Below, one piece after another: positions 1 to 31,338 of a DNA stretch of 36,315 nt; the first letter of the stretch is position 1, and every line of letters begins with the position of its first letter. Source of the DNA: a virus; IMG/VR virus record IMGVR_UViG_3300042295_001187, positions 1 to 36,315 of that record; one strand, written 5' to 3'. A model generated the notes under the pieces. That model was not told where the DNA came from. It did not search any database and saw nothing but the letters and a program-made list of their open reading frames with translations. Made by a program: the position numbers and the translations under genes.

Positions 1-574
1 TACATTGCAAAGTCACAGTTTGTAGCGCAAAGTACGCTTCTCTATCTGTGTTGTACAATGTTTCGAGTTGAGAAACTGTATATCTTTGCCCGATAAACTC
101 TAACACTCGATTTTTGAGAGGAATATTGTTAACATTTACAAAGGCTGATAACATTGCAAATTCAACATCGTATTTTTCTAATACTCTGAATATAGCGTTT
201 TTAGGTTTACCAATAAATGGGTTATACAATCCGCGAAGTTTGTATTTGTTGATTATTTCATAGTATAAAGCAACTTCTCCAAAATGGTCAATTTCGCCTG
301 TACACAAATAATATTCTGTTGGATCTATATCAACAAACAAGCCATCTAAAATATCGCTGAAGTCTTTTTCATTTCCATTCACGATCGTTACATTCATTGA
401 AGCGGTTAAACGAGTCAAATGTGCGTTAACAGTTGAGTCTCTATCTTTATTACCGTTATAGAAATAGCTAAGAGATACAGGCAAAACATTACTGCTACCA
501 TAGTCTTCAACTAACTTAAGATAACAGGCTAAACTATCCTTTCCTCCAGACAGCATAACAATAAATTTATTCAT
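1..574 (-). CDS. PP-loop ATPase, DPH6-like (diphthine-ammonia ligase family), partial
   Basis: The gene starts at an ATG at 574 and runs off the left edge, so only about 191 N-terminal residues are visible. Residues 9-14 read SGGKDS, the PP-loop that binds ATP in the adenine nucleotide alpha-hydrolase superfamily. The later segment around CTGEIDHFGE and the NPFIGKP turn fits the DPH6/MJ0570 type, which adenylates a carboxylate and then usually amidates it, better than QueC or ThiI. The start overlaps the stop of the upstream gene by 8 bp, so translation is probably coupled. In this context an amidoligase could modify a peptide or protein carboxylate, but the substrate is unknown. The superfamily call is firm; the family call is moderate because the C-terminus is missing. 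Confidence 0.72.
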   Translation of the reverse strand, partial: MNKFIVMLSGGKDSLACYLKLVEDYGSSNVLPVSLSYFYNGNKDRDSTVNAHLTRLTASMNVTIVNGNEKDFSDILDGLFVDIDPTEYYLCTGEIDHFGEVALYYEIINKYKLRGLYNPFIGKPKNAIFRVLEKYDVEFAMLSAFVNVNNIPLKNRVLEFIGQRYTVSQLETLYNTDREAYFALQTVTLQC

Positions 575-1400
575 CGCTTGTTCTTTCAAAGTTATAACGT
601 ACTGACATTCTATTCAATGTGTTTTGAACTACATCGATATTTAAGATATCTTCTCGTACATGATGCTTAGCTATACCTGCCCGAAAAGAGTAAATGTAAA
701 TTTTATTCATATGTTTATAGTACTCGAATGTAAAGGCACCGTTAAAACGAGTAAAGACTCCATAGATAAGATTTTTTAATCTTTGATCTAACGGCGATCT
801 ATTCGCAGCAATTTCCAACGCATTTCTTTCGTCAATGCAAAAAAATCCATACACTTTATCGTATGCTTCAAATTGGGTTACGTTTGCTAATCTAACAAAA
901 TACTTTTTGTCTCTTGAGTATATTATATTTGGTACCTTTGAGATAAAAATATTTTCATGAGAAGAAACGAGTTGATCGAGTGTTCCGGTAGACATGAGTG
1001 TTTCGTTTGGCCCATCGAGCTCAAGTAGATCAAATACACGATCGGAGTGTGTATTCTTAAAGGTATTAAAGTATTCGTCATCAATAAATTCATGACAAGG
1101 CGATACTGCTATACCTTCAAGTCTTGTCACTAAACCTTTTAAAAATGTGAGCACCGTTTCTTGATCAAATCGTCCACATTTATTTGGCAGGGCCCAGAAG
1201 ATATGGCCATCATTCCAAAAATCTTTTAATGATACGGTATTATAATCTAACTCTGGTGGTACATCAGTTACTGTGATATCGGCCAATTCAGGAATGAATA
1301 CTTGCGTAGTATGAGGAACACTACTTAGCAACGTTTCAGCGACAGATGAATCGTCACAATAGATTTTTAATCTGTTTTCTACTGTCATTACACTAGGCAT
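567..1400 (-). CDS. Unknown protein, possibly degenerate ATP-grasp-like
   Basis: A 277-residue soluble protein with no signal peptide or membrane segment and no family I recognise with confidence. The C-terminal third (about residues 165-255) has an alternating strand pattern, with FNGAFTFEYY followed by KIYIYSFRAG. This is reminiscent of the metal-binding end of ATP-grasp ligases, where a G-x-F-x-x-E strand precedes an ExNxR motif, but the ExNxR residues are absent. The resemblance is therefore weak and may be accidental. It overlaps the glycosyltransferase-like gene upstream by 8 bp and the PP-loop ATPase downstream by 8 bp, which ties all three to one transcript and probably one pathway. 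Confidence 0.6.
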   Translation of the reverse strand: MPSVMTVENRLKIYCDDSSVAETLLSSVPHTTQVFIPELADITVTDVPPELDYNTVSLKDFWNDGHIFWALPNKCGRFDQETVLTFLKGLVTRLEGIAVSPCHEFIDDEYFNTFKNTHSDRVFDLLELDGPNETLMSTGTLDQLVSSHENIFISKVPNIIYSRDKKYFVRLANVTQFEAYDKVYGFFCIDERNALEIAANRSPLDQRLKNLIYGVFTRFNGAFTFEYYKHMNKIYIYSFRAGIAKHHVREDILNIDVVQNTLNRMSVRYNFERTSDE

Positions 1401-2283
1401 ATGGATATTCTAACCCCGTACTAAACTTATTAACAACTGATTCAAAATAAGTTTCCACTTTCATTTTCCAATCATCCTGCCATGGAAACACGAAACCACT
1501 TCGATCGCTTGCAAGTGCCTTTGCCATAACCAAATAATTATGGTCAACATCTTTATATTTAAAATGACGATACACCGGAGAATACACCATTGTAAAAACA
1601 TCATTCCATTTACTTATAACACCAAATGGTATTTTATACATGGCAGCAATCATTCCAAATTCACTATTATATGATGTCCATATTAGTTTTGCATTCATAA
1701 GAAGATGAAGTCCACTTACGTTTTGAGATATTATGCGTTCTCTATATTTATCCTTCATTTTATCCACAGAAGCATCAGTCATAACTGGGTGTAATTTAAT
1801 CATAACATCGGGATAATCGATTAGCGCTTCTTCCACCTTTTCCCAATTCACTGTATGGAATAGATTAGATCCCGGTAAAAAGATTACTTTATCATAAGTT
1901 GTTTCTTGTTTTTCAAGAATGTATTTGTCTTGTATTTGTTCGAGCATCTGAGATATGATAGAATCATCTATATGAGTGTTTGAAAAAATATGATCAAAAT
2001 TTCTACAATTTACTTCTGCGTTTCTTGTGCTCACGAGTATTCCGCCCATGCAATCATGATACGCTATAGCATTGACTAAACCGTTTACAACTTGAGTAAT
2101 ATCATCTCGAGGTGGAACACCGCCAATAAGAGGACTTACATTAAATTTGCAAGTTAATTCATACTGGGCACATGTTTTAATGATATGATTTTCTATATTT
2201 AAAAAATATTCTTTTTTGTATGTAGGTTGAATATAACCAATGCGATCTACATTCGTCCACATTTCATTGATGGTATTGTTCAT
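1393..2283 (-). CDS. GT-B-like glycosyltransferase
   Basis: A 296-residue protein. The C-terminal half looks like the nucleotide-sugar half of a GT-B fold: a strand KVIFLPGSN (about 132-140), a helix, MIKLHP (161-166), then NAKLIWTSYNSEFGMIAAMYKIPFGVI in two pieces (197-223). This resembles the S/T-x(n)-E-A-x(n)-G-x-P region of capsule-type and CDP-glycerol-type transferases. The N-terminal half is not recognisable. The gene follows, after about 70 bp, the Thr/Ser-repeat structural protein at 2354-2821, an obvious candidate acceptor for O-glycosylation. No strong Shine-Dalgarno precedes the ATG at 2283, so it may depend on readthrough transcription from the late promoter at 2844. Alternatives are a glycan-synthesis or epimerase-like GT-B protein. 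Confidence 0.55.
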   Translation of the reverse strand: MNNTINEMWTNVDRIGYIQPTYKKEYFLNIENHIIKTCAQYELTCKFNVSPLIGGVPPRDDITQVVNGLVNAIAYHDCMGGILVSTRNAEVNCRNFDHIFSNTHIDDSIISQMLEQIQDKYILEKQETTYDKVIFLPGSNLFHTVNWEKVEEALIDYPDVMIKLHPVMTDASVDKMKDKYRERIISQNVSGLHLLMNAKLIWTSYNSEFGMIAAMYKIPFGVISKWNDVFTMVYSPVYRHFKYKDVDHNYLVMAKALASDRSGFVFPWQDDWKMKVETYFESVVNKFSTGLEYPYA

Positions 2284-2353
2284 ATTATACTCGAGTATGT
2301 TATAATCTAACTATTACAGTTTACAATTGCCGATTCTATACAAGTTATATTAT

Positions 2354-2821
2354 TTAATATGTACTTGTTGTGGCACTCGTAGACCAAGAAGTAGTTGCAG
2401 AAGTAGTTTGACTTACTGCTGTAGCAAACGATGTTGTTACGTCAAAAGATGTAGTGAACGATGTAGTGAAAGACGTAATATGAGAAGTGGTTCCATAAAC
2501 TGGCCCAGCTTTGCCGGTCCCAAGAAGTGTAGAATAAGATGTTGTAGCTGAAGTAGTTGCAGAAGTAGTTTGACTTACTGCTGTAGATATACTCGTAGTT
2601 AAATCATACGCCGTAGAATAACTGGTAAGTACGCTAGTCGTAAATGTAGTAGTCTTAAACGCAGATTTACCTCTTAAATCCGCAAAACCAACAGTGCCAG
2701 AAGCCCTTGCGCCAAGACCTCGTACTGGCACACTATTCATGCTAATTGTAGCAGTTGCGCTCAGTCCAAGTTCTACGTTAACTTCACTGAGTGATATAGG
2801 CCCTGTGCTAGGTAATGGCAT
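2354..2821 (-). CDS. Thr/Ser-repeat phage structural protein
   Basis: A 155-residue protein in two parts. Residues 1-54 match a module often seen in small structural proteins of marine myophages: LPSTGPISLSEVN near the start, then GFADLRGKS. Residues 55-155 are more than half Ser/Thr, built around about twelve copies of the tripeptide TTS with short spacers such as TTSATTS and TSFTTSF, and end in STY. At DNA level a 37-bp unit repeats exactly (2388-2424 and 2550-2586). The repeat is mucin-like and a plausible target for glycosylation or other side-chain modification. An exact T4-type late promoter lies 22 nt upstream, so this is expected to be an abundant late virion product. A glycosyltransferase-like gene follows directly. 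Confidence 0.8.
   Translation of the reverse strand: MPLPSTGPISLSEVNVELGLSATATISMNSVPVRGLGARASGTVGFADLRGKSAFKTTTFTTSVLTSYSTAYDLTTSISTAVSQTTSATTSATTSYSTLLGTGKAGPVYGTTSHITSFTTSFTTSFDVTTSFATAVSQTTSATTSWSTSATTSTY
2388..2586. repeat. Two exact 37-bp direct repeats inside the Thr/Ser-repeat gene
   Basis: Positions 2388-2424 and 2550-2586 are identical and in frame. They encode the TAVSQTTSATTS unit. The copies suggest expansion or contraction of the repeat by recombination or slippage. Confidence 0.85.
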
Positions 2822-2843: not shown

Positions 2844-2851
2844 TATTTATA
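2844..2851 (-). promoter_or_regulatory. T4-type late promoter (TATAAATA)
   Basis: On the minus strand the gap reads CTAGTATAAATATTC, an exact TATAAATA box 22 nt before the ATG at 2821. It lies in one of the few non-coding gaps of the window and shares the extended form TATAAATATT with the box at 17556. Confidence 0.7.
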
Positions 2852-3424
2852 CTAGTCATGGTCATATAAGAATAGATCTACTGGAAGGGCAATACGGAGA
2901 TTTGCGTCATATCTTCTTACATGATGATAGAGAAACCCTGGGAATATCACTACATCTCCGGTTTGTGGCATATGGACTGTTGGTTTAAACTGCGGCTGAA
3001 ATTCTAAAGTGTATCCTCTATTCGCGTTCGTCCGTGGATCGCTAAAAACAATCTCACCACCGCGGTCTTCATGTTCTGCCATAATATAGAAAACCGCAAC
3101 GAACGGCGATCCTGCATGGTTATGGGTGTCCATACTATATCCACCGCCGTTTCCGGTTAACCACGATTTAAACTTAAAGTGATAGTCATGTATGTCTATA
3201 TCATACACTTTCTCAAGGTATTCTCCGAACTTTTCTTCTGCGAGTTCCTTGAGTCGAGGTATTTTATGTATAATGAGAGATGCTTCGTCGTCACCTGGAG
3301 ATGTGACGACTTCATTCGACATTACACCAGTCAATATAGTTTCGCAGTCTTCTTTACTTATCTTTGACAAATAAACTGTCGTTGGGTACAGGTTGTTAAA
3401 CCCTAAATCCAATCTCTTCATCAT
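2852..3424 (-). CDS. 2OG-Fe(II) oxygenase (2OG-FeII_Oxy_5-like)
   Basis: A 190-residue double-stranded beta-helix oxygenase. The probable iron ligands are the first histidine pair in DTHNH (H101, H103), a distal His in FPGFLYHH (H167 or H168), and R177 in LRIAL for the 2-oxoglutarate carboxylate. The segment GGEIVFSDPR (122-131) and PQTGDVVIFPGFLYH (153-167) are typical of the PF13759 type, which uses an HxH rather than HxD first motif. This family is common in T4-like marine phages and hydroxylates protein or small-molecule substrates. AAGGA lies 5 nt before the ATG at 3424; ATG at 3421 is an equal alternative. It overlaps the upstream gene by 29 bp and is the last gene before the late promoter at 2844. 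Confidence 0.83.
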   Translation of the reverse strand: MMKRLDLGFNNLYPTTVYLSKISKEDCETILTGVMSNEVVTSPGDDEASLIIHKIPRLKELAEEKFGEYLEKVYDIDIHDYHFKFKSWLTGNGGGYSMDTHNHAGSPFVAVFYIMAEHEDRGGEIVFSDPRTNANRGYTLEFQPQFKPTVHMPQTGDVVIFPGFLYHHVRRYDANLRIALPVDLFLYDHD

Positions 3425-3791
3425 AATATTCCTTTACATCTGGAACCATTCCAGTCATTTTTAATGGTAACTCAATATCTTTTAAGATTTTATCATATGT
3501 GTTTGGGTCTTCATCGTATGTTTTAAAATACGGGTCATTACCAGCAAGTAGCATTGGATCTTTAAGTAGTTCGATAAGATCTTCACTATAGTCTTCTACT
3601 ATCCAACTAGCATAGCATACTGCTACAAAATAACTCTTTGCCGGATATATCCACTGATCAACTTTTTCATGAAAGTGACGGATAATATCGTTGTACTCAT
3701 TGCTAATGACGATTTCAACATTGTTCAAGTCATCTCGGTACTCGTGATTCAACCTATGATAGATCTCTTGTTTTATTTTCCACTCTTGCAT
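3396..3791 (-). CDS. Unknown small acidic protein
   Basis: A 131-residue protein of unrecognised family, rich in Asp, Glu and aromatic residues and apparently helical, with no signal or membrane segment. I start it at the ATG at 3791; an upstream TTG at 3803 would add four residues but lies deeper in the preceding radical SAM gene. It overlaps that gene by 19 bp and the 2OG oxygenase downstream by 29 bp. Its position between a radical SAM enzyme and an oxygenase suggests an accessory role such as substrate recruitment, but nothing in the sequence proves this. Confidence 0.6.
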   Translation of the reverse strand: MQEWKIKQEIYHRLNHEYRDDLNNVEIVISNEYNDIIRHFHEKVDQWIYPAKSYFVAVCYASWIVEDYSEDLIELLKDPMLLAGNDPYFKTYDEDPNTYDKILKDIELPLKMTGMVPDVKEYYDEEIGFRV

Positions 3792-4684
3792 TCGCCATAC
3801 CAATCTAAAAGACCTTTGTACCCATTACAACTATCGTCTAAGTTTTCGACATACCGGTAATGCTCAGTTAAACACGTGCCGTAATACTTACATTGCTTAC
3901 AGATGTCGCTGAGTTCGTTCTTTTCTTTCTGCGTCCATTGTATATACTCGTTCCAAGACTCAAGCTCTAAGAAGTACTCCTTATCATATTTATCAAACTC
4001 GAGCACACCAAACTTCCCATTCGGTGTTATATAGATGTGATTATCCGAGAACGCGTTGTATAGTCCTTCGTATGAATCTTGAATATGATCTTCATTTATG
4101 AAGTGGAACTTTTTTGGTGTTGTTGCAGTTAGCCACTTTATAACGAAGTTCTCGTAGTCACGATGAGTAACATTATACGAGTTCGCCTGATTAATAGAAT
4201 ATGGCTTGATCTCAACTGACTCAATAGACGAACACATATTTAACATATTAATCATTTCATCTACGTCCATTTGAATAACTTGAGGCGACGCAAGTATCAA
4301 AACCGCAATAGGGACTGGGGACATGAGCATGTTCTTATAAACGAGCTCAGACTTTTCACGGGCAGCAAAATCATATGACACAGAAAGATACGTGTCGTTG
4401 TCATAGAATCCTTCATGAATCATAGAGTAATTCGTTATCACATTGATGTCTCCATCATAATATTTACGAATAACATTTTTCATGGCATAGAAGTAGTCTT
4501 TCTTCAAAGCACCAATCTCACCGCCATATAAATCGATATGCTCGATCAATGGCACTTGACTTAAAAGTTCATCGAGCCGGTTCAATTCTATCTTCTTTGT
4601 ATCACGAAGTTGTGATTCGGTTAGATAACAGAAGTCACAGCTAAAGTTGCAGAAGTAAGAAGGATTAATACTTACTGTATACAT
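3773..4684 (-). CDS. Radical SAM enzyme with reduced SPASM-like C-terminus
   Basis: A 303-residue protein beginning almost at the catalytic strand. C12, C16 and C19 form the CxxxCxxC motif (CNFSCDFC) that binds the [4Fe-4S] cluster reductively cleaving SAM. YGGEIG (about 54-59) is the GGE SAM-binding turn. The C-terminal cysteine group reads CKQCKYYGTC plus a later DSC. The first Cys normally found before the ITPNGK hairpin of a full SPASM domain is missing, so a single auxiliary cluster is likely. SPASM proteins mature peptides and proteins, forming thioethers, C-C or C-O links, or oxidised side chains. The gene overlaps the next radical SAM gene (4672-5709) by 13 bp, suggesting a working pair. 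Confidence 0.85.
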   Translation of the reverse strand: MYTVSINPSYFCNFSCDFCYLTESQLRDTKKIELNRLDELLSQVPLIEHIDLYGGEIGALKKDYFYAMKNVIRKYYDGDINVITNYSMIHEGFYDNDTYLSVSYDFAAREKSELVYKNMLMSPVPIAVLILASPQVIQMDVDEMINMLNMCSSIESVEIKPYSINQANSYNVTHRDYENFVIKWLTATTPKKFHFINEDHIQDSYEGLYNAFSDNHIYITPNGKFGVLEFDKYDKEYFLELESWNEYIQWTQKEKNELSDICKQCKYYGTCLTEHYRYVENLDDSCNGYKGLLDWYGECKSGK

Positions 4685-5709
4685 GATTCATCAACATAAG
4701 GTGTTGGTTCTAGATTAAGACCATTCGCGTGAATAATCTCTGGCGCAAGTTGCTTCATATGTTTGCAATGGTCTTCAACCATTCCAAAGTTCTTTAAGTC
4801 TTTTACAGTCTTTCGGCAACCATTGCATATCTCGAACATTGGACAACTGAAACAAGATTTTTTGAGTGACAAGAGATTCAAATCATCTGTTAACGGTGTA
4901 GAGAACCCTCCAGCCATTTCATATTCAAAATCGATAGGTTTATCTCGGTCATCACCAAATGATCCACAAGAATAGTAATCGCCTTCAGGATTAATATTAC
5001 GAATATTCGAATCGCATGTGCGACTCTGTGGGCAGATCGTGTTTTCACCTTTTAGTCGTTTTAACATCTGTTGAGTGTTATGCTCCCACGGAGCCAGCCC
5101 AGCTTTCCAGATCTCAACGTATTTCTCATAGATCTTCGATAGACGATAAGGTTTATCTTGATCACCACTTGCCATGGCGTAGTTCACCTTACAGACCACA
5201 TCCATCTTTTTTGCTAACTCGACAGTTTGTATAACAGAGTCTTCATTCTCTTCTGTAATAACTGCGAGAAAGGTTGGTCGATATCCAATGTGCTCGAGCA
5301 TAGTATTCGACGCATTCCAAAAGTCTTCTTCACTAAAGACAGAATAATCGCCTTTTAATCTGCCATTGCCGTATTGAAAAGACGTGGCTACGCCAACTCG
5401 AGGATGTAAGAATAAAGGCTTCCACTTATCGACATTCTTATAGAATGGCCAGAGATTTGTTGTCAAAGAGATGGTGGTGGGATATTCATTTTCCTCTAGA
5501 TGCTTAATGAGTCTCCAGTAGTAAGCTGGGCTCATCATAAGAGGATCGCCACCATTTACAATGATAGTGTTTGTATTGGGATAGCGCTTAAGAAAACGAA
5601 ATACTTTCTCAAGATCTAATTGAGAAGTATGATCTTCTGATATCTTAGTTGAAGAACAAAAGGTGCACTTGAAGTTACAGACTTCAGTCGGCTTAATAAT
5701 CAAATCCAT
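4672..5709 (-). CDS. Radical SAM/SPASM enzyme
   Basis: A 345-residue protein with the CxxxCxxC motif at C11, C15 and C18 (CNFKCTFC) and the GGDP variant of the GGEP SAM-binding turn (VNGGDPLM). A full SPASM set follows: CPQSRTC, then a hairpin NPEGDYYSCGS, then CFSCPMFEICNGC and a final DHC. This layout predicts two auxiliary [4Fe-4S] clusters, as in anSME and sactipeptide or epimerase-type maturases. The first Cys is 11 residues from the N-terminus, so there is no N-terminal RiPP recognition domain and any such element must be a separate protein. It starts 6 bp after the stop of the 101-residue gene upstream and overlaps the reduced-SPASM enzyme downstream. QueE-like function is unlikely given the SPASM tail. 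Confidence 0.88.
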   Translation of the reverse strand: MDLIIKPTEVCNFKCTFCSSTKISEDHTSQLDLEKVFRFLKRYPNTNTIIVNGGDPLMMSPAYYWRLIKHLEENEYPTTISLTTNLWPFYKNVDKWKPLFLHPRVGVATSFQYGNGRLKGDYSVFSEEDFWNASNTMLEHIGYRPTFLAVITEENEDSVIQTVELAKKMDVVCKVNYAMASGDQDKPYRLSKIYEKYVEIWKAGLAPWEHNTQQMLKRLKGENTICPQSRTCDSNIRNINPEGDYYSCGSFGDDRDKPIDFEYEMAGGFSTPLTDDLNLLSLKKSCFSCPMFEICNGCRKTVKDLKNFGMVEDHCKHMKQLAPEIIHANGLNLEPTPYVDESCIQ

Positions 5710-5715
5710 GTTGTA

Positions 5716-6021
5716 TCATATATCAGCGTTAGGCCGATCTTTACCATATTTGTTGTTACATTCTCTAAAGTATTGTGTTTGGTCGATTGAATCTACGCCT
5801 TCAATCTCACACAGCCGGCGGTTAATGGCACGAATATCTTCTTTTAGAAATTGACCATATGGCTCCAGCATTTGGATCATATCCATGTATATTTTGTATT
5901 TTACTGGATCGCCCTGGAACTCGTACAGTTTCGTAATCCATACGTTGTACATTTCTGCGCACAGATCGCGTTCATCTCCGAGTTCTTTTTTCTTTTTCAA
6001 AAGAGTTTCAACTTCATCCAT
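5716..6021 (-). CDS. Unknown small helical protein
   Basis: A 101-residue highly charged protein with a coiled-coil-like start (LLKKKKELGDERD) and an all-helical look. No family recognised. The ATG at 6021 overlaps the stop of the 2OG oxygenase upstream by 8 bp, and the stop lies 6 bp before the SPASM enzyme downstream. Its size and place between two modifying enzymes would fit an adaptor or a substrate-binding partner, but it does not have the winged-helix pattern of a classical RiPP recognition element. Confidence 0.6.
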   Translation of the reverse strand: MDEVETLLKKKKELGDERDLCAEMYNVWITKLYEFQGDPVKYKIYMDMIQMLEPYGQFLKEDIRAINRRLCEIEGVDSIDQTQYFRECNNKYGKDRPNADI

Positions 6022-6535
6022 CTTCTAATCCTACGCTATAATCAAAGCTAGCAAGTCTACGTGTTATCTGTGTAGACCCTGCACGATGCCAGAAGCCACG
6101 ACAGTTATTTACCATAAACAAGTCTCCCGCTTGTGGATAAAAGTGTGCTGTTTCTTCTGCGCCATCTTTGTTGTACCATTTAAAATTTATTGATCCGCCA
6201 GTTTCTGGTTTTTGTGTGTCAAAGTAATATAAAAAGAATATATCGTACCCTTCAAACATGTCGGTATGCCAACCTTGGTTGTCTGCATCTACACCATCCC
6301 AAACAAGAAACTTGTTGTATCTAGCATTTGGCCATTCTGGAAGAATGTATTTCATCGTAAGATATTGCGCGAATGTTGACATGCGCTTTGTAAGTTCTGG
6401 ACTCACATCTTTCTCGCCATTATCACGAGATCTTTCTTCGACGTTTAAAAGCATAAACTCGGAGATATTGATTAAATCAAGAGCGCCTGGTTCACTAAAT
6501 TTAACGAATCCTTTAGTGTAAATATCTTCTATCAT
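6014..6535 (-). CDS. 2OG-Fe(II) oxygenase, prolyl-4-hydroxylase-like
   Basis: A 173-residue oxygenase. Iron ligands are H90 and D92 in GWHTDMFEG and H150 in FWHRAG, with R160 in TRRLASF as the 2-oxoglutarate anchor: the full HxD...H...R set. The core is a beta-helix with FFLYYFDTQ, GGSINF and PQAGDLFMV strands. I start at the ATG at 6535, which overlaps the TGA of the B12-type radical SAM gene upstream (ATGA), rather than at the GTG at 6550. A GAGGAGG sequence lies 14 nt upstream. Family members hydroxylate Pro, Lys, Asp or Arg in proteins, or small molecules. Its coupling to a B12-type radical SAM gene matches RiPP pathways that combine C-methylation and hydroxylation. Confidence 0.85.
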   Translation of the reverse strand: MIEDIYTKGFVKFSEPGALDLINISEFMLLNVEERSRDNGEKDVSPELTKRMSTFAQYLTMKYILPEWPNARYNKFLVWDGVDADNQGWHTDMFEGYDIFFLYYFDTQKPETGGSINFKWYNKDGAEETAHFYPQAGDLFMVNNCRGFWHRAGSTQITRRLASFDYSVGLEDG

Positions 6536-8259
6536 AATATCTCTAAACACCTCCTCGTTATATCAGATCTAAGTATTATTTCGTTCTTTGACAAAAACTT
6601 TTCGATCGTATTCACTCTAAAATCACCACCAAGCTTTCGAATAGTTTTGGGCGGAGTGTTAGGATCGAATATGTCGGCTATTTCTTCTTTTATCGCTTTG
6701 AAGTCTTCAAGGCTATTTATTGATTCAAATGCGATCTTACCAAAGTCTGCCGGCTTTACGAATGGCTCTAGCAACGGATATATGTTCTTCAGTAAATAGT
6801 TTGAAGCATTATTCATAAACCACATCTCTTGCATTTCATCAGTAGTGAACGAAAAACATGAACGTATCGTTTTGAAATACGTTTTCTTGTTCTTATAGAG
6901 GTTATGCCAGTTGTCTGAACCGTCTTCGTCGAGAATATCAGAATATACTTCAACAGTTTCAATATTATACTTCTTCTTATACTCTTCTGAATTAAGAGTA
7001 GAATCTGGAAGAAACATATAGTCGTGCCGAAAACTTGACCACGCTTTAAAATTCCAGATGATTTCTAATTCTGCATAAAAATCATCAAGTGTAGATCCTG
7101 GCATCCCAAGAATAAGTTCAACTGCAGGAGTGGGATAACCTTCCTCTCCGCATTTCTTATTGATATGTTGAGAGAGCTTAATTTTATCTTCAAAGCTCAA
7201 ATCAACTCTTTCAGCTATACGCATAGCTTCTTCACTTACACTCTGAATGCTAATCGATGGTATGATTGAAATGTATTCGGTTTTACCCCACATATCGGTG
7301 CCGCCTTCAGACTCTGAATGTTTTTCTTCACCCTTTCCAACAATATCGAATATAGCATCAATCAACCTGATTCTTCTATTTAAGTCTTTTGCTTTCATCG
7401 TACTGATGTCAGTCAAATTAAACTTATTATCCCACCCAAACCGAAATATCGAAACATCTCTTTCTTCAAATGCTCCAAAGTTAGCATCTGTAAGATATGC
7501 ATCTCGAAAACCAGCTTTCTTCAATGCAAGAATATCACGCTTTACTATCTCGATGTCTTTTTTAACAATCTTAGTACCAATCCCGCCACCCCACTCACAG
7601 TATACACATTTATATGGACAGCCACGAGTTGTTTCGATTATCACAAATGGTTCAAGCTTATTCTCTTTCGCGTAGGTCAACATCTCAGTTAAGTAGTCGA
7701 GATGTTCTTCATATACTGAGTAGTCTACATCAAACTTAGCAGGAATTGATCTTTTGCTCTTTAATTCCCAAGAAATATTTTCGCTTACTAATCTATCTTC
7801 AATATAACAATCGAGAACGTCTTGAATAAACATTTCTCCAGGTTTAGTCGGCTGACAGATAAAATCGTATTGAGGTCTACTTGCAAGAAATTCTGGTTCG
7901 TTAGTACCAATATGAGGTCCACCAAGTAGAAGCACTTTTTCTGGATGTGACTTCTTAATCATATTTGCAACGTCATCACAAATGGTATAGTTCCAAGTGT
8001 ATGAACTGAACATAATGATGTCTGCATTTTCTACTAATGATGCAACATCACTAATATCTTTGTAAGTGTTCCACTTATAAGGAGCTGGTTGCCATTCTAC
8101 ATTGTTTGGGTATTTTCCAAAATGATTGTAGTAGCTTTGGCAGAGCAGAAACGTTGTATTATTACTCAATGACCAATCTGCGTGAGGCGGATTGATGAAA
8201 GCAATTTTAACCTTTTTTTGATTCAACGTATCGGAATGATTCTTTAAAGACACATTCAT
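6532..8259 (-). CDS. B12-binding-domain-type radical SAM enzyme
   Basis: A 575-residue protein. Residues about 16-150 form a Rossmann-like cobalamin-binding-type domain with NPPHADWS, ADIIMFSSYTWNYT and LLLGGPHIGTNEPEFL, but the base-off DxHxxG motif is absent, as in many class B members. The radical SAM core has C214, C218 and C221 (CPYKCVYC) followed by the unusual CEWGGGIGTK. A second signature, ELILGMPGSTLDDFY, is typical of this superfamily. Known relatives perform C- or P-methylation, ring contraction or mutase chemistry. It is a clear homologue of 32917-34944. The ATG at 8259 lies 53 bp inside the preceding gene; an in-frame TTG at 8226 would reduce the overlap. Confidence 0.87.
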   Translation of the reverse strand: MNVSLKNHSDTLNQKKVKIAFINPPHADWSLSNNTTFLLCQSYYNHFGKYPNNVEWQPAPYKWNTYKDISDVASLVENADIIMFSSYTWNYTICDDVANMIKKSHPEKVLLLGGPHIGTNEPEFLASRPQYDFICQPTKPGEMFIQDVLDCYIEDRLVSENISWELKSKRSIPAKFDVDYSVYEEHLDYLTEMLTYAKENKLEPFVIIETTRGCPYKCVYCEWGGGIGTKIVKKDIEIVKRDILALKKAGFRDAYLTDANFGAFEERDVSIFRFGWDNKFNLTDISTMKAKDLNRRIRLIDAIFDIVGKGEEKHSESEGGTDMWGKTEYISIIPSISIQSVSEEAMRIAERVDLSFEDKIKLSQHINKKCGEEGYPTPAVELILGMPGSTLDDFYAELEIIWNFKAWSSFRHDYMFLPDSTLNSEEYKKKYNIETVEVYSDILDEDGSDNWHNLYKNKKTYFKTIRSCFSFTTDEMQEMWFMNNASNYLLKNIYPLLEPFVKPADFGKIAFESINSLEDFKAIKEEIADIFDPNTPPKTIRKLGGDFRVNTIEKFLSKNEIILRSDITRRCLEIL

Positions 8260-9220
8260 TCACATCTCTCACAATCTTTGAATAATCATTTTTAATAAAA
8301 CAAGTAAACGGGCATTTCTTATAGAATTCACACTCAAAACAATTGTACCGAATTAAAAACTTTTCAACTATAGTTCCTGAACCTAGATCGTTCGAAGATG
8401 GGCTAGTAAGTAGTACCGATCCAGAACACCCCTTTGGCACAGAGCCATCTGGCAATATTGTAAAACTATTACCTCGAGTACAGGACATTCGATTGTGTTG
8501 ATCGTCTTCTGTAAAATACGATACGTTAAGACACTCCGGATAGTTATCTATTAGGTATTTATTAAACGTTAGTAGGTCTGATTCCTTCGGCATAAGCGAT
8601 TCGGATATACTTACTGATGGTAAGAAAGAATCCCAATCACAAGGAAATTTATGATAAAGATAGTCGAAAAAGCTATCGCCTTCGATGATCGCTTTCATGT
8701 TTTGCTTTGTTGCAACACCACTTATCATGCGAATATGCTGGCTCAGCGCATCTACGTTCTGTTTAAACTTTTCGAATTGCTGTGGATTAAATCTACCCTT
8801 AGGGTCATATGACACTGATATCTTGTAATCGTTTTCAGTTAAAAATCGATCGACGGATTCGACATCATCAAACAGCAAGTTTGTAATAAAGTTTGGCTCA
8901 ACGTGTTTATTAGCGTCTACTTTTTTACGGATATCGACCATAAATTGTTTGTACGTTTCGAGAAACCCAAGCGTAATCCATCTATCCTGAAATAGTTCTC
9001 CGCCCATTGTATGGATCTTAAAATGAGTAGATCTCTTGTTGCTATTAATCCAAGCTGCAACACTATCGGTTTTAGAAAGAATATCTTCTTTTGTCGCTCC
9101 AACTATAGATGTGTGATCTTGTGGGCAAAACACACATGCTAAGTTACAATGCTCGAACAAGCAAACAACGACCTCAGCATAATCAATGACCTTCTGGTCA
9201 ATCAAATTGTATATGTTCAC
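8207..9220 (-). CDS. Radical SAM/SPASM enzyme
   Basis: A 337-residue protein with C25, C29 and C32 (CNLACVFC) as the SAM cluster ligands and a GGELF turn in place of GGEP. The SPASM region carries MSCTRG, the hairpin LPDGSVPKGC, CFECEFYKKCPFTC and a last ECVFK, enough for two auxiliary clusters. The start is a GTG at 9220 whose GTGA overlaps the stop of the 2OG oxygenase upstream, so the two are translationally coupled. Its end overlaps the B12-type gene by up to 53 bp. Function is expected to be peptide or protein maturation; the substrate is unknown. Confidence 0.87.
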   Translation of the reverse strand: MNIYNLIDQKVIDYAEVVVCLFEHCNLACVFCPQDHTSIVGATKEDILSKTDSVAAWINSNKRSTHFKIHTMGGELFQDRWITLGFLETYKQFMVDIRKKVDANKHVEPNFITNLLFDDVESVDRFLTENDYKISVSYDPKGRFNPQQFEKFKQNVDALSQHIRMISGVATKQNMKAIIEGDSFFDYLYHKFPCDWDSFLPSVSISESLMPKESDLLTFNKYLIDNYPECLNVSYFTEDDQHNRMSCTRGNSFTILPDGSVPKGCSGSVLLTSPSSNDLGSGTIVEKFLIRYNCFECEFYKKCPFTCFIKNDYSKIVRDVNECVFKESFRYVESKKG

Positions 9221-9696
9221 GCTATTGCCGGAATTTTAAATTCAAAAGATAGGACTCTCCTTGGTCCTTCAGTGTGTGTTGCTCGGTGTAAGAACCTTTG
9301 GTTCTGATTCAACCACACGAATTGATTCTTCTTTGGGTAAATTTTAAACTCTTCTACAGGTGTCTTGACTTCGATGAAGTTATTATACATCTCTCCATCG
9401 TCTAAGTACACTAAAAAGTTACTGTTGAATTCATCGCAGCTGTCGTTATGCCATTCCTGAGAAGGACCATCAACTCCAGACCACATGTTATGTTCACCAA
9501 AACTGAATTCTTCGAACATTGTAGAAACATACTTTGTAGCAATATGTTCGTGTAGCGATTGCAGATACATTTCTGCTTCTGGCGAAGGAGTTGCTTCACC
9601 GTCATTGCAATTCGGGAATGGGAATCTCTTAAATAAAAAAGCTACGTCTAATGTTAAAACGCCGGTCGCAAATCCATTTGTTAAAAACTCATTCAT
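9217..9696 (-). CDS. 2OG-Fe(II) oxygenase-like protein
   Basis: A 159-residue protein with the oxygenase ligand set: H83 and D85 in EWHNDSCDE, H137 in RFLHRATH, and R146/R147 in PRRVLSFEF. The strand NFLVYLDD (93-100) follows the HxD motif as expected. It is shorter at the N-terminus than classical prolyl hydroxylases. It is coupled by a 4-bp GTGA overlap to the SPASM enzyme downstream and lies 5 bp after the unknown 389-residue gene. The predicted role is hydroxylation of a protein, peptide or phage-made metabolite. Confidence 0.75.
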   Translation of the reverse strand: MNEFLTNGFATGVLTLDVAFLFKRFPFPNCNDGEATPSPEAEMYLQSLHEHIATKYVSTMFEEFSFGEHNMWSGVDGPSQEWHNDSCDEFNSNFLVYLDDGEMYNNFIEVKTPVEEFKIYPKKNQFVWLNQNQRFLHRATHTEGPRRVLSFEFKIPAIA

Positions 9697-11596: not shown

Positions 11597-12232
11597 TTAT
11601 CTGCGGCCTCGAGAGCTGTGGCAGTTGTTGTGACAAGACGCATGACAGACGTTAACTTGCTCAGTATGAATAGTATTTCTTGCTATGGCATAAGCTGTTT
11701 GTAAGTTGGTGAAGAATGTTTCTAGGTTAAAAATGGTGATGTTGATATCTGTTGCTATGCCGCTTGAGTCTGTTGCACCGAGTGTCTGTAAATAAGTGGT
11801 ACTCAAATTAGCTTTTGATGTTTGATCATAAATAATGCCTGGGCCTTGACCAGTGATTGGGCCTAAGTCTATACGTATATTGTTGACCGTACCGTTGCCA
11901 GTCGGACGAGGTGTAATAAATCCAGTACCAGTAATAAACAACACTGCTCTTAGATTACGGATTCGCGTATACGTTGCAGTTTCTGTTCTTAAAACGTTTA
12001 TAATTGTACCTGCAGTAATGGTGGAACCAACACCGCCTAAGTTGGTACCAGTAATACCAATGGCTTTACCAGTCGTCGTACCACCCCAAATGTTCGGAAA
12101 ATATGACGAGTATGCACCAAACGGAAGTGCGTTTGAAGCGAACACGATACTTGCATTTCCGGTTGCTACAACGTAATCGGCAAAACGATCTATTATGTTC
12201 TGAGCGTTAATATCATCTTTTAAAGTTGCCAT
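11597..12232 (-). CDS. Phage structural protein with Cys-rich C-terminal tail
   Basis: A 211-residue protein. The body (1-185) is Gly/Thr/Ile-rich beta sequence typical of small virion proteins, with an N-terminus (MATLKDDINAQNIIDRFADY) like fibre- or neck-associated proteins. The tail is abnormal for a virion protein: VNVCHASCHNNCHSSRGRR, that is three Cys spaced by three residues, each followed by His, then an Arg-Gly end. Another Cys-then-Arg-Gly end occurs on the 63-residue protein at 31147-31338. The gene begins 2 bp after the SPASM gene at 12235-13254. The tail could bind metal, form disulfides, or be the core region for radical SAM crosslinking. A TATAAATA box lies 169 nt upstream, inside the SPASM gene. 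Confidence 0.75.
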   Translation of the reverse strand: MATLKDDINAQNIIDRFADYVVATGNASIVFASNALPFGAYSSYFPNIWGGTTTGKAIGITGTNLGGVGSTITAGTIINVLRTETATYTRIRNLRAVLFITGTGFITPRPTGNGTVNNIRIDLGPITGQGPGIIYDQTSKANLSTTYLQTLGATDSSGIATDINITIFNLETFFTNLQTAYAIARNTIHTEQVNVCHASCHNNCHSSRGRR

Positions 12233-12234
12233 AC

Positions 12235-13254
12235 TTATTCCATCTTAGCTAACAATTTCATCAAACTTTTTGGAGCTCCACATACATCGCCTTGCCATTC
12301 TAATTGGTGACAATCCCCATTGCAGTACTGAAATACTGGACAAGAATAGCATTTTGGGTTTCTGCTTCTTTCTTCTACAATGCTGCGAAGCCTTCTTGGA
12401 CTATTTATAATGGTGGCAACTGAATCGTCGATCGACCCGAAGTTAAACTCTGGTGCTGCATTTGGACAACCAGAGATTGTTCCATCTGCATTGAGCGTAA
12501 AGATCTTTTCTTCACAGTCGCGGCAAAAAGTACCGGAACAGTTGTATCCGCTTTCAAATTTCGCATACACGTTTTCGAGATTTTCGTTATGAAACCATTC
12601 CCGAGTATTATATTTGATAGCATCATTGTGCATATCAAGAAACCACCGATCGAGTTCAATATTCGTTGGAAATATCTCCGGAAACATCTTTGCAGACCCA
12701 TTACTCGTGAGCCTTTCAAACGATACTTCTTTTACACCGAGTCTGCGAATCCATCTCATCAACACGATAGGACGATATGCGATCGTCTGTTTTGTTACGC
12801 TGATGAATAGCTTAATATCAACTCCTTCACGCTGAAGCGTCTTGAGATTGTCATACCATAATTTGTATTGTTTGAAGTTGGCAAATCGAATCTTTGGATC
12901 CCAAGAGGTACCTAGCCGGCTTCCAAGATCGTTCTTAATAAACTCAATATGTTCAGGTTTAAGCTTATATACAAGATTTGTAGTAGCACCAAAGGTTTGA
13001 TTAGGTGATAGATCTTTGCACGCATCTACAACGTGCTTCATCTGTGATACTGGTGCTAAGAATGGTTCACCGCCATGAAACTCATAATGCGCAGAGTCAC
13101 CTGGCTTAAACTTTTCACGATGAAACTCGTGAATCCAATTTGAAACTTTTACTGGATCAAAGTAAACCTTAGCACCATTGATTCCATTCGTAAAACAATG
13201 GCTGCAATTTAAGTTGCACGTCTCAGTCGTCTTAAGATAGAACACCCAGTTCAT
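12235..13254 (-). CDS. Radical SAM/SPASM enzyme
   Basis: A 339-residue protein with a textbook layout. C13, C17 and C20 form CNLNCSHC, FHGGEPF is the SAM-binding turn, and the SPASM domain carries NCSGTFCRDC, the hairpin LNADGTISGCPN, CYSCPVFQYCNGDC and a last DVC. It looks most like anSME or sactisynthase-type maturases, which act on Cys or Ser residues of peptide substrates. The gene overlaps the cupin-type oxygenase upstream by 23 bp and precedes by 2 bp the structural protein with three C-terminal cysteines, its most obvious candidate substrate. Confidence 0.9.
   Translation of the reverse strand: MNWVFYLKTTETCNLNCSHCFTNGINGAKVYFDPVKVSNWIHEFHREKFKPGDSAHYEFHGGEPFLAPVSQMKHVVDACKDLSPNQTFGATTNLVYKLKPEHIEFIKNDLGSRLGTSWDPKIRFANFKQYKLWYDNLKTLQREGVDIKLFISVTKQTIAYRPIVLMRWIRRLGVKEVSFERLTSNGSAKMFPEIFPTNIELDRWFLDMHNDAIKYNTREWFHNENLENVYAKFESGYNCSGTFCRDCEEKIFTLNADGTISGCPNAAPEFNFGSIDDSVATIINSPRRLRSIVEERSRNPKCYSCPVFQYCNGDCHQLEWQGDVCGAPKSLMKLLAKME
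12402..12409 (-). promoter_or_regulatory. Possible internal late promoter (TATAAATA)
   Basis: An exact TATAAATA on the minus strand inside the SPASM gene, 169 nt before the Cys-tailed structural gene. A match inside coding sequence may be chance. Confidence 0.25.
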
Positions 13255-24868: not shown

Positions 24869-25615
24869 TTAAAGAGCACCTTCGATATCATTGAAAAACT
24901 CAATTCGAGCTTGAATAGCTGATATTGCTGCTTGTTCAGCTTCATGAATCTTAATTGGATCATCGTCACAGAAGTATTCTACGAGTTTTTCTGACATTGG
25001 TCCATGCTCATCGCCATCTACTTCAATATGCCTCTGAAGATAATAGTGAAACTTAGGTGCTTCGAGTTTGCTAATGTTAAGCTGAGTTAATAACCGAGTA
25101 AACATATCTGGAATAATTGTTTCACGACCATACGCAAATGAAGCTGCAGCACAATGCGGTCCCTTTTTAATCGTGTCAAAGGTACTACGCATAAATTTTT
25201 CAGCCGGCTTTGAAGCAAGATGGTATGGAATATTTCCTATAATGTCTATGTTTTTAAGAAACACATTGATAGGTTTTACATCTGCATCTACTTCAAGCAT
25301 TGACTGAAGATATAAGTCAAAATGACTCACCGATCCGCCACCTGGTGCAACATCAGTTTCTTCACATAATACGATCTCATTAATCATTCTCGCAATATCA
25401 GAACGTGTTCCCTTTGTCGGAATCCACAAATATGTTGTCGGAACTACTTCGTGTTGCAATGTTTTAAGTAAGGACATAAAATCCCATACCGCAAACACGT
25501 GGTGCTCCATAAACACCCTTAAGTCTTGCTTTGACTGGATGTTATTTGTTATAAGAAGTGAATGATTCTTAAGTAAGTTTGAATGTTCTTCAATTAGTGT
25601 TTTGTTGAGTTTCAT
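24869..25615 (-). CDS. DUF3050 / heme-oxygenase-like diiron oxidase-type protein
   Basis: A 248-residue all-helical protein that fits the DUF3050 family, part of the heme-oxygenase-like diiron oxidase (HDO) fold. Diagnostic stretches are FMEHHVFAVWDF (35-46), CEETD and SHFDLY (84-102), SFAYGRE (159-165) and FHYYLQRHIEVDGDEHG (189-205). The last has the H-x5-H-x3-D-x3-H pattern expected to supply metal ligands. HDO enzymes use O2 for N-oxygenation, C-C cleavage or desaturation of amino-acid-derived substrates. It overlaps the SPASM gene upstream by 26 bp, so it joins the modification block. Family assignment is from memory of motifs; the reaction is unknown. Confidence 0.75.
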   Translation of the reverse strand: MKLNKTLIEEHSNLLKNHSLLITNNIQSKQDLRVFMEHHVFAVWDFMSLLKTLQHEVVPTTYLWIPTKGTRSDIARMINEIVLCEETDVAPGGGSVSHFDLYLQSMLEVDADVKPINVFLKNIDIIGNIPYHLASKPAEKFMRSTFDTIKKGPHCAAASFAYGRETIIPDMFTRLLTQLNISKLEAPKFHYYLQRHIEVDGDEHGPMSEKLVEYFCDDDPIKIHEAEQAAISAIQARIEFFNDIEGAL

Positions 25616-26945
25616 TTCTTGTCCTTAACCCATTAATATATCTTCTCATATAGTCTGTTGGCTCTTGATCATGTTTCATAACAACAGGTTGGCCAAAGAG
25701 TAATTGGAATGCATGAAGTTGAATATTTCCCCACCATACTTTTTCAAGAGCACAATTAGAATAGAATACGTGATCAGGAAACTTAATCGGGCATGAAGAT
25801 CTACACAAACGTTTCACTGGGCACTTCATGCAATGGGTCTTCTTGCGAAGAATGTCCATACCCTTGATCTCTACCTTCGTAACATCCTCAAGACGACCAG
25901 CAATAAAGCTTCCATCAGTATGAGGGCATAACCGAACATTGCCCTGAATATCTACAGACAATATATCGTTTGAGTCTGCTCCACAACCTGACTTTGTAGT
26001 GATAGGCGTAGCTCTCTTTAAGAATTTCGCGTATTCAATCACGCCTTCTTCTGAATACACTATATTGTTTTTTAAGAATCGAACACGCTCAATGTCGTTT
26101 ATACTCTGCTGGGTAAACTCGAATAGATGCAAAGTAAATGCTTTTAACTTCTCTCCACGAAGAATGTAATTTGATGAAGCTTCACCAGTGTCATGCACAT
26201 CATAGTTCTTAGCAGGAATGAATGTGATCTTCATTCTTTTGCGGTCAATTTGTTGAGAATCACAGAAGTCTTTAAAATAGTCGTTAATCGCGTATAGATC
26301 GTGGTTATCACTGCTTACGACTGTTGAAAATCCTAGGCCAACATTAGGCAAGTCAATAAGTTGTTTGATAACGTCGACTTTATTTGGCTTCTTCAATATA
26401 TCTTCACCGCGAAGCTTCTCTTGGCCTACCGCGTCATGTGATAAACTAATAAGTACTCTTGCTTTCAGCGTTCGAAAGAAGTCTACATGTTTTTGAACAA
26501 AGGCAGAACCATTTGTAGATATAAAGAACTCACGATCTGGTGAATCAAAAAACGTCATCAACTGAACCATATCTTTCCAATATAAGAATGGTTCTCCGCC
26601 CCACAGTTCTACACGGTGTAAACGATCAAGGTTTAAGTTCCGTTTGATATTAGCGATAAATGTATCTGTGTAAATAGACTGTGGTCTTTCAGACGGATTA
26701 CCAATATCTTTTTGCATGCAATATGTGCAATTATAATTACATGCATGCCCTAACAGAATTCGAATCGCAATTGGATTGTTTACTTTATTCGTGACACCGT
26801 GATTCTTTTCTTCTACTTCGTAATAAGAAAGATCTCTTTCGGGTGGCATGTTTAATTGAACACCAGAGGTGTTCATTAGTCTATTCGTGTGTGAGTCATA
26901 ATAGAAGGAAGTGCCATCCTTCAATTCATAATATTGATAATCCAT
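25590..26945 (-). CDS. Radical SAM/SPASM enzyme with N-terminal extension
   Basis: A 451-residue protein. An N-terminal extension of about 60 residues (YYELKDGTSFYYD, then NRLMNTSG) forms short strands and could bind substrate. The core has C69, C73 and C76 (CNYNCTYC), LWGGEPF, and an ISLSHDAVG strand. A complete SPASM set follows: SGCGAD, the hairpin DIQGNVRLCPH, HCMKCPVKRLCRSSC and SNC. Its ATG overlaps the stop of the 126-residue HxH protein by one base (TAATG), a close pairing expected of maturase and substrate. The end overlaps the DUF3050 oxidase. Confidence 0.9.
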   Translation of the reverse strand: MDYQYYELKDGTSFYYDSHTNRLMNTSGVQLNMPPERDLSYYEVEEKNHGVTNKVNNPIAIRILLGHACNYNCTYCMQKDIGNPSERPQSIYTDTFIANIKRNLNLDRLHRVELWGGEPFLYWKDMVQLMTFFDSPDREFFISTNGSAFVQKHVDFFRTLKARVLISLSHDAVGQEKLRGEDILKKPNKVDVIKQLIDLPNVGLGFSTVVSSDNHDLYAINDYFKDFCDSQQIDRKRMKITFIPAKNYDVHDTGEASSNYILRGEKLKAFTLHLFEFTQQSINDIERVRFLKNNIVYSEEGVIEYAKFLKRATPITTKSGCGADSNDILSVDIQGNVRLCPHTDGSFIAGRLEDVTKVEIKGMDILRKKTHCMKCPVKRLCRSSCPIKFPDHVFYSNCALEKVWWGNIQLHAFQLLFGQPVVMKHDQEPTDYMRRYINGLRTRNETQQNTN

Positions 26946-27335: not shown

Positions 27336-28475
27336 TTATTTGAAACTTATTATGGGAGTCGGATCACCTGATGGGAAGTATAAACCAACTTCAGTTCTTC
27401 GATATCCTAGCTCTATAAGTTTGTGATAGTATTTTGAGTTTTCACTTAACATCATCTTTGGTATAAAGTTAAATTCTCTATTCACTACAAATGTATCTAC
27501 TGTATTTATATAGTAGTCTCTAAATTTTTGTGCGGTAGAATCTAGCGATTGTTTTAACTCTTCAGAGAAAGAGTTATACAATTTAAACTTTCCATTAACC
27601 ATATCATACATAAATTCTCTATGATCAAAGTCCCCGCTCATTATGTGAAAAGGATCCCAATTTATATCAGTTGCGTCATCAATACTATAGAAGAATCTAT
27701 CACCATATAGGTGAAGTGATCCACGGTAGACCTGATACGTTCTATCATTGTAGCACAGCACGTGGCTGTTTTGATAGTCGAATAACCCCTGCAAGTCATG
27801 ATCTGCATTACCGAGTTCGTTATCTTCAACACTTCTCTTTCTATAATCATTATGAAGAGACGTTACAATACCTTTATCATTTATCCACTCAACGAGTTCT
27901 TTTGCATGATAAGGTAATTCTGTTTCTGTTGTTTTGATTACCTTGACTTTATGTAAATCATACTTGCTTATATAATCTTGTAGTATCTCAATAATCTTGT
28001 TATAGTTTTTCTTTGAGTTTACTTTATTCATAAACTCTTCACTTAATGCAACTTCAGATAACCCTTTCATGTCGAGTTCCATAAGTGTCTTATGTTGTTT
28101 TATAAGTGCGTTATCGGTCATACCATATTCAAAGGTAGAAGCGTGTTCCTTATACCAAGAATATACGTAAGGATAGTTTTCCTTAAGATAGGACAAATCG
28201 TCGACTACTCTAATAACGTAGAAGTAGCTGAAGATCTCGTACCAACGCTTTTCTTCTTCGGCGGTTATCTTGGTGGGCACTGCATTCGAATAATACGGCA
28301 GATGTTGATTTAGTTTTTGCTTAATATAACAGACCTGACAATTCGCACCACAATAGTATTTGTTGGTAGGACTAAACGTAATATCATGATCTAAAGGTGC
28401 TAATGCATCTTCGGTTATGAAGTACGCACTATTATCTTTGAATTTTCTAAATTCTTCACCAGTGTAACTACTCAT
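27336..28475 (-). CDS. Divergent radical SAM-like protein
   Basis: A 379-residue protein that I start at the ATG at 28475, overlapping the SPASM gene upstream by 8 bp (a TTG at 28481 is possible). SPTNKYYCGANCQVCYIKQK carries a CxxxCxxC motif at C42, C46 and C49, preceded by a short strand and followed by Tyr, as in radical SAM proteins. No GGEP turn or SPASM cysteines are evident and the rest of the barrel is hard to trace. The charged middle (about 60-200) is helical and the C-terminus beta-rich. It may be an active atypical enzyme or a partner protein. Location between a SPASM gene and an HxH substrate-like gene supports the former. Confidence 0.6.
   Translation of the reverse strand: MSSYTGEEFRKFKDNSAYFITEDALAPLDHDITFSPTNKYYCGANCQVCYIKQKLNQHLPYYSNAVPTKITAEEEKRWYEIFSYFYVIRVVDDLSYLKENYPYVYSWYKEHASTFEYGMTDNALIKQHKTLMELDMKGLSEVALSEEFMNKVNSKKNYNKIIEILQDYISKYDLHKVKVIKTTETELPYHAKELVEWINDKGIVTSLHNDYRKRSVEDNELGNADHDLQGLFDYQNSHVLCYNDRTYQVYRGSLHLYGDRFFYSIDDATDINWDPFHIMSGDFDHREFMYDMVNGKFKLYNSFSEELKQSLDSTAQKFRDYYINTVDTFVVNREFNFIPKMMLSENSKYYHKLIELGYRRTEVGLYFPSGDPTPIISFK
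27503..27510 (-). promoter_or_regulatory. Possible internal late promoter (TATAAATA)
   Basis: An exact TATAAATA on the minus strand inside the divergent radical SAM-like gene, 177 nt before the 126-residue HxH gene. It may be a chance match. Confidence 0.25.
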
Positions 28476-31145: not shown

Positions 31146-31146
31146 C

Positions 31147-31338
31147 TTAGATACTGCCTCGGGCACAGTTGCACTGACAATTTGATGTATAGTCATCACT
31201 AAATGTATGGCTGTGCTGAATCAACGCATCAAGCACATCGACCATCTGCCGAAAAGATGCGGCATCAATTGTTTGGCCTGACGTTTTTGCTGTAGTGGAT
31301 CCAGCTGCTGTAAATGTACTCGTGTTATCTGCAACCAT
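31147..31338 (-). CDS. 63-residue HxH protein with Cys-rich tail, candidate maturase substrate
   Basis: A small protein with a leader-like Thr/Ala-rich start (TFTAAGSTTAKTSGQTIDAA), a helix, an HSHTFSDDY segment and the tail TSNCQCNCARGSI with three cysteines. The middle matches both modules of the 126-residue protein at 26945-27325. It has an AAAGGA ribosome site 7-8 nt before the ATG. It is immediately followed by the 549-residue SPASM enzyme with a 1-bp gap. A TATAAATA box lies 67 nt upstream. It could be a virion tip protein, a RiPP-like precursor, or both. Confidence 0.75.
   Translation of the reverse strand: MVADNTSTFTAAGSTTAKTSGQTIDAASFRQMVDVLDALIQHSHTFSDDYTSNCQCNCARGSI

Follow-up and report, generated by a model that had tools for sequence, protein, structure and literature searches.

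The serine-rich repeat adhesins of Gram positive bacteria are glycosylated by the adjacently encoded GtfA and GtfB, and the Ser-Asp repeats by SdgA and SdgB, with UDP-GlcNAc as the donor. Flagellins are glycosylated by Maf and FlmG with CMP-pseudaminic or legionaminic acid. Among phages, virion glycosylation reportedly occurs in mycobacteriophages, where work by Freeman et al. that appeared in Cell Host Microbe in 2023 is said to have proposed that a phage-encoded glycosyltransferase decorates virion proteins. Closest to the enzyme described here in its structure are the retaining beta-Kdo transferases KpsC, WbbB and KrkA (CAZy GT107, GT99 and GT140), which act on saccharides and carry a QXXXD motif that provides the nucleophile.

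We have analyzed a stretch of viral DNA of 36,315 nucleotides (the window, as we call the whole of it) in which a short protein with a dense series of Thr-Thr-Ser tripeptides, the TTS protein, is followed by a gene for a GT-B transferase. Our main reading, to which we would give a probability of around two thirds, is that this is a mucin-like virion protein of the phage that is O-glycosylated by the transferase of its own cassette; its virion location, glycosylation, donor and role are all things that we infer. The likeness to the adhesins with GtfA/GtfB and SdgA/SdgB lies in a Ser-rich repeat protein, a dedicated O-glycosyltransferase encoded nearby and the GT-B fold. In contrast to these bacterial surface adhesins, the phage repeats are dominated by Thr and have spaced aromatic residues, and no demonstrated sequence relationship links the two. 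Direct transfer of a CMP-nonulosonic acid to Ser/Thr of an extracellular filament, as by Maf and FlmG, would be the same chemistry, although those enzymes belong to families different from that of the phage transferase, whose donor is presumed. As proposed for mycobacteriophages, a phage-encoded glycosyltransferase would act on virion proteins; what differs here is that the likely acceptor is a dedicated Ser/Thr repeat protein, that the enzyme is KpsC-like and that the hosts are Gram negative aquatic bacteria. With KpsC, WbbB and KrkA the phage enzyme has in common the GT-B fold and a K-x-H-P motif, but it lacks QXXXD, is only about 10-13% identical to them and would probably use Ser/Thr of a protein, instead of a saccharide, as the acceptor.

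Organization of the locus

The original prediction had described a stretch of about a hundred residues, more than half of them Ser/Thr and with some twelve TTS tripeptides, followed by a glycosyltransferase-like gene, and this agrees with what we measured. The TTS protein consists of an N-terminal phage module of 53 aa and a Ser/Thr-rich part of 102 aa, in which Ser and Thr make up 57 residues (56%) and TTS occurs 12 times, that is, a long, repetitive and Ser/Thr-dense region of the mucin-like or Ser-rich repeat kind. Chance composition can be ruled out, since 10,000 shuffles of residues 54-155 never yielded 12 TTS tripeptides (mean 2.6, maximum 9). The protein also tops the window in Ser/Thr content, with 57 per 100 aa; the next frame, a tail fibre, has 38. 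The transferase gene starts 70 nt downstream on the same strand (Table 1). It is located in a structural-gene region and beside the gene of its putative acceptor, as would be expected for virion glycosylation.

Table 1. Features of the window; all are on the minus strand.
Feature	Position	Strand	Remarks
PP-loop (QueC/Dph6-like) ATPase	2..589	-	fourth cassette gene, truncated by the window end
277-aa protein	567..1400	-	third cassette gene; same order in L007, L015, L177
GT-B transferase	1393..2283	-	296 aa; KpsC/WbbB-like fold (model); phrog_26179 family
Mucin-like TTS protein	2354..2821	-	155 aa, ATG start
Ser/Thr-rich region of the TTS protein	2357..2662	-	residues 54-155; two TTS-rich arms
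Non-repetitive short link LLGTGKAGPVYG	2492..2527	-	joins both TTS arms
N-terminal module of the TTS protein	2663..2821	-	residues 1-53; PLPSTGPISLSEVNVELG... / MPLPSTGPISLSEVNVELG...LRGKS; common to other phage proteins
T4-type late promoter-like site TATAAATA	2844..2851	-	23 nt upstream of the TTS start codon
2OG-Fe(II) oxygenase-like genes (3)	2852-3424, 6014-6550, 9217-9696	-	between tail-fibre genes
Radical SAM genes (8)	3773-4684, 4672-5709, 6532-8259, 12235-13254, 25590-26945, 28468-29586, 29496-31199, 32917-34944	-	Pfam match
Radical SAM-type gene	8207-9220	-	Cys-motif-like N-terminus only, no Pfam match
Small proteins with Cys/His-rich C-terminal tails (2)	11597-12232, 31147-31338	-	tails CHASCHNNCHSSRGRR; CQCNCARGSI; beside radical SAM genes

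Both genes had also been placed under a single late promoter. A candidate site is indeed found ahead of the pair, and the seven copies of its motif in the window are all on the coding strand, but this number is only a modest excess over the mean of 3.8 expected by chance. A late promoter common to the TTS and transferase genes is plausible.

Downstream of the transferase there are further cassette genes that the original prediction overlooked. The 277-aa protein had no match in a Pfam search; it is 24% identical (E 2e-19) to the gene at the same position in L177, a contig from a metagenome-assembled genome with the full cassette, which was the one further locus found in the genome collection. 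The PP-loop ATPase has weak Pfam matches to Diphthami_syn_2 and QueC and matches phrog_1550 with E 5.6e-6. The succession of TTS protein, transferase, 277-aa protein and PP-loop gene is kept in the three loci named in Table 1. In one of them, L007, neck genes come after the cassette, and in the window itself tail-fibre genes dominate. We also considered whether the PP-loop gene found in the window lineage and that found in Vibrio phage KVP40, both QueC-like, belong to one family; their pairwise similarity was not significant (E 0.18) and therefore only the window-type order is claimed. A role of the PP-loop protein as a sugar amidotransferase (PseA-like) received no support from family searches.

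Besides, there are about nine radical SAM-type genes among the tail-fibre genes (window positions 3773-34944), two of them with B12-binding domains. The two small Cys/His-tailed proteins beside them have the appearance of virion-like proteins to which a RiPP-style substrate has been fused, and the tail of the first one matches phrog_35144 by itself. One of the 2OG-Fe(II) oxygenase-like genes is the immediate upstream neighbour of the TTS gene, and similar genes are found near TTS or module genes in Pelagibacter phage HTVC008M and in L177.

Fold and conserved motifs of the transferase

A profile match over most of its length assigns the transferase to PHROG 26179 (E 9.2e-38, residues 61-283). 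Sequence searches against Pfam, NCBIfam and the PDB gave nothing decisive (the KpsC structure 6mgb was reached by profile search with E 1.1), and Pfam Capsule_synth had no match to the window transferase, its best value in the family being E 0.006, with 3 of 28 members matched. The AlphaFold model built from 28 sequences has a pLDDT of 85 and a pTM of 0.86 and keeps both Rossmann-like domains, and Foldseek returned GT-B enzymes with it. When the model was compared by VIA-align, the best 15 structures were all CMP-Kdo transferases (KpsC, WbbB and KrkA), with Z values from 10.8 to 7.3 and up to 235 residues aligned, and the next structure scored 6.7. Specifically, Z was 10.8 over 230 residues for KpsC, 9.6 over 231 for WbbB and 7.5 over 203 for KrkA. 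The original prediction had offered its GT-B call to the judgement of structure prediction, and in the model and the structure comparisons the assignment holds, as a GT-B fold of the KpsC/WbbB/KrkA type.

Across the 28 relatives K163-x-H165-P166 is invariant and S207-E208 nearly so, and D61, D77, K120 and Y121 are invariant or almost so. The (K/R)XHP motif binds CMP and is common to sialyltransferases and Kdo transferases (PMC12887879). Its invariance in the phage family makes a CMP-activated donor likely for this enzyme as well. In the QXXXD motif of the Kdo transferases, the Asp is the nucleophile of a double displacement (PMC12887879; see also PMC9587256). In our sequence alignment the Gln is absent in all 28 phage proteins, the Asp position is variable and no QXXXD is conserved anywhere; at the corresponding place the phage proteins have G-[S/T/H]-N-L-x-x, of which the last residue varies. 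Because this motif is missing, a retaining nucleophile mechanism is unsupported, and neither the donor nor the mechanism of the Kdo transferases can simply be transferred to the phage enzyme. The conserved acids D61 and D/E77 could act as catalytic base.

It is also conceivable, although unlikely, that the O-modification which the enzyme makes on the TTS protein draws on a UDP-hexose, for example, or on phosphoglycerol, and not on a CMP-ulosonic acid. The Foldseek list also contains GT-B enzymes with UDP donors, SdgB (the transferase of Ser-Asp repeats), GtfA/B, O-GlcNAc transferase and TagF, and the absence of QXXXD would be in keeping with such a donor; against it, the 15 Kdo-transferase rows clearly top the VIA-align comparison and K-x-H-P is invariant.

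Linkage of the two genes across phages

A search with the transferase alignment provided 80 IMG/VR loci, to which phage records were added. The resulting 88 genes formed 20 clusters at 70% identity, and in 18 of these a Thr/Ser-rich protein was encoded directly upstream on the same strand. The linked clusters come from Caulobacter, Vibrio and uncultured, mostly marine, phages. Among them are the Caulobacter podoviruses Lullwater, BL198 and Quill, Caulobacter phage Cr30, the Vibrio phages KVP40, QD01, F86, D479 and 6E35.1a, and also a large group of marine phages whose Ser/Thr proteins are about 670 to 1,550 aa long. The composition varies, the upstream protein being Thr/Tyr-rich in Cr30 (weaker in Ser/Thr) and Thr/Asn/Tyr-rich in L017. 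With a fixed threshold for Ser/Thr-rich (0.48 S/T in 50 aa), 15 of the 20 clusters had such a protein adjacent, versus 2 of 140 non-adjacent same-strand ORFs of those loci (Fisher p = 4e-15). Many loci are closely related, so that these counts correspond to some 5-6 truly independent lineages. The converse search, starting from the marine N-terminal module, found the transferase 143-188 nt downstream in all 73 loci with enough flank, 32 of which were non-redundant. Thus, the Ser/Thr protein and the transferase travel as a cassette among unrelated phages, and the pairing that had been noticed in a single window has gained evidence far beyond it. We found no description of this pair in the open-licence literature.

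Other features of these loci deserve mention. A single Ser/Thr-rich frame (L158:9001-18168) runs through 3,056 codons without a stop until the contig ends. A small coiled-coil-like gene, absent in the window, separates the pair in Vibrio and marine phages and also precedes the transferase in L093-type loci; it is found just before the transferase in L001:4487-4705, L054, L044 and L093:4447-4632. In the marine group (L026:4868-5809 and L041:4665-5600) the gene after the transferase encodes a conserved protein (MIEIVHxYKKxWSMFTLASLL) that is about 315 aa long; it had no family match and is possibly a second transferase.

The comparison of two sister phages is illustrative. The DNA of KVP40 and VH7D is 81% identical through the end of the gene preceding the TTS protein and diverges beyond. 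In KVP40 the order is TTS protein, small coiled-coil gene, transferase, KVP40.0257 and the QueC-like gene. At the same locus VH7D has a non-TTS protein built on the window's module, followed by PagP, and its whole genome record contains no transferase; the set has been lost in this phage. Because the transferase is nearly always found beside a Thr/Ser repeat protein and both were lost together here, the TTS protein is the probable acceptor.

The original prediction had overlooked that the 53-residue module is common to phage proteins with glycine-rich adhesin-like or other C-termini. Residues 1-53 match phrog_26817 (E 6.7e-10), phrog_26746 and the N-termini of proteins in 43 phage records. The module bears glycine-rich adhesin-like C-termini in L008, L009, L011-L013 and gp065 of HTVC008M, and other C-termini in L010, VH7D gp152 and MS02. 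Its carriers are often encoded after tail-fibre or baseplate genes, directly 3' of the baseplate gene(s) in HTVC008M and of a tail-fibre gene in MS02. Where the C-terminus is not of the TTS kind, the transferase was found in 0 of 5 testable loci, and among the matches listed no record with a non-TTS module protein was also a record with the transferase. Conversely, in L015 and L177 it is another module (QxDLSxIxNxYLNGNE...) that bears a TTS region of similar kind, and the transferases of these two loci belong to the window's clade in the tree. At least five unrelated N-terminal modules are found among the Thr/Ser-rich proteins upstream of the transferases. As far as these sequences indicate, the linkage follows the TTS region, and the N-terminal module is not the conserved partner.

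A different reading would be that the transferase alters glycans on the surface of the host, either lipopolysaccharide or capsule, for example to block superinfection, and that the TTS gene is its neighbour in a shared host-recognition island. Its fold is that of enzymes adding Kdo to capsule or O-antigen, and for pelagimyophages the transferases in the hypervariable host-recognition region have been proposed to modify the O-chain (PMC7029224). Besides, two clusters, the L093 group and Stenotrophomonas phage DLP_6, have the enzyme without a Ser/Thr-rich neighbour, so that the fold can serve another acceptor; in the tree both are placed apart from the other transferases. However, if host glycans were the target, the strict adjacency in 18 of 20 clusters, in podovirus and myovirus lineages alike, the 73 of 73 loci of the converse search and the joint absence in VH7D would all be unexpected, and we consider this explanation quite unlikely.

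Selection, structure and possible role of the TTS protein

The TTS protein of the window is 88% identical to that of its nearest relative, L007, and 43% to that of L015; the K-G link between the arms appears in the alignment also in L015, L177 and the Vibrio phage relatives. Over the 102 codons compared with L007 there were 14 synonymous and 6 amino acid changes. Ten of the synonymous changes affected S/T codons and not a single S/T residue was replaced (chance P = 0.006), all six replacements being at non-S/T positions. The S/T residues are therefore under purifying selection as protein, and a DNA microsatellite is ruled out as the origin of the repeats.

How the region is folded is less clear. 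AlphaFold gave a pLDDT of 28.8 and no confident fold for the TTS protein, from an alignment of three sequences that is too thin to prove disorder. In marine TTS proteins, the aromatic residues are located at strictly even spacings. Of the pairs no more than 20 residues apart, this holds for 247 of 262 in L063 and for 237 of 243 in L072, and the same was seen, almost without exception, in L041, L073 and other marine loci. Such a pattern in these relatives looks more like that of an ordered, extended strand than like that of a disordered mucin, so the term mucin-like may be only half right. It could even be argued that the TTS region stays unmodified and forms a structural fibre, its Thr/Ser/aromatic repeats making up an extended beta strand or a beta-spiral, and that the GT-B-like protein serves in assembly or acts on a different acceptor. 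The even spacing, with periods of 4, 6, 10, 16 and 20 residues in relatives, the short coiled-coil gene between both genes in Vibrio and marine phages and the missing catalytic QXXXD would fit. Nevertheless, we regard it as decidedly improbable, given that K-x-H-P, S-E and D61/D77/K120/Y121 are (near-)invariant in the 28 transferases, as in a working enzyme, and that the model retains both Rossmann-like domains. Low-complexity drift of a Ser/Thr-rich tail-fibre tip without special function beside an unrelated gene is scarcely credible: the tail-fibre proteins of the window are also Ser/Thr-rich (up to 38 per 100 aa), but 12 TTS tripeptides versus 2.6 expected, the intact S/T residues despite 10 synonymous changes in their codons, the recurrence of the pair and the linkage statistics all contradict it.

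O-glycosylation of the TTS protein by its cassette transferase remains the reading that we prefer. The TTS protein would be a late-expressed virion protein, and its location at the virion surface is suggested by the module, the late promoter and the neighbours (neck genes in L007, tail-fibre genes in the window); that it is glycosylated and exposed there can be inferred with good reason. Its module would probably dock it on the tail fibre or baseplate, replacing the glycine-rich adhesin-like tips that carry the same module, with the 102-aa region facing outward. Before assembly, the GT-B enzyme would move a sugar from a host-made CMP-activated donor straight onto Thr/Ser hydroxyls. This sugar would probably be Kdo, which occurs in most Gram negative hosts, or a nonulosonic acid (pseudaminic, legionaminic or sialic), and the product would be a dense mucin-like brush, probably acidic. 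Such a coat would most likely be used in tuning adsorption or shielding the tip protein, stability being another option. The original prediction had also contemplated hiding from receptors or antibodies; either would be conjecture, and antibodies are hardly to be expected as a threat to phages whose hosts are aquatic bacteria. A broader and more tentative generalization, which we hold to be somewhat short of an even chance, is that phage mucins form a widespread class. These would be fibres of Thr/Ser repeats, between 100 and more than 3,000 residues long, on interchangeable modules for docking to the virion. A dedicated enzyme of KpsC fold that has lost the Kdo-transferase nucleophile would attach Kdo or a sugar of the sialic acid type directly to their hydroxyls, forming an acidic brush in imitation of the host surface.

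The proposal is directly testable because several of these phages grow on laboratory hosts, such as Caulobacter crescentus CB15 and Vibrio natriegens Vmax. If it is true, aquatic phages would commonly encode their own protein O-glycosylation, which would then no longer be peculiar to mycobacteriophages, and its two-gene signature could be searched for in any phage genome. Transferase genes and genes for Ser/Thr repeats that at present are labelled only hypothetical, as in KVP40, Cr30, Lullwater and numerous contigs of marine origin, would gain a function. Some of the transferases assumed to change the host lipopolysaccharide would actually act on the phage itself, and a protein-glycosylating branch may have to be added to the KpsC-like fold.
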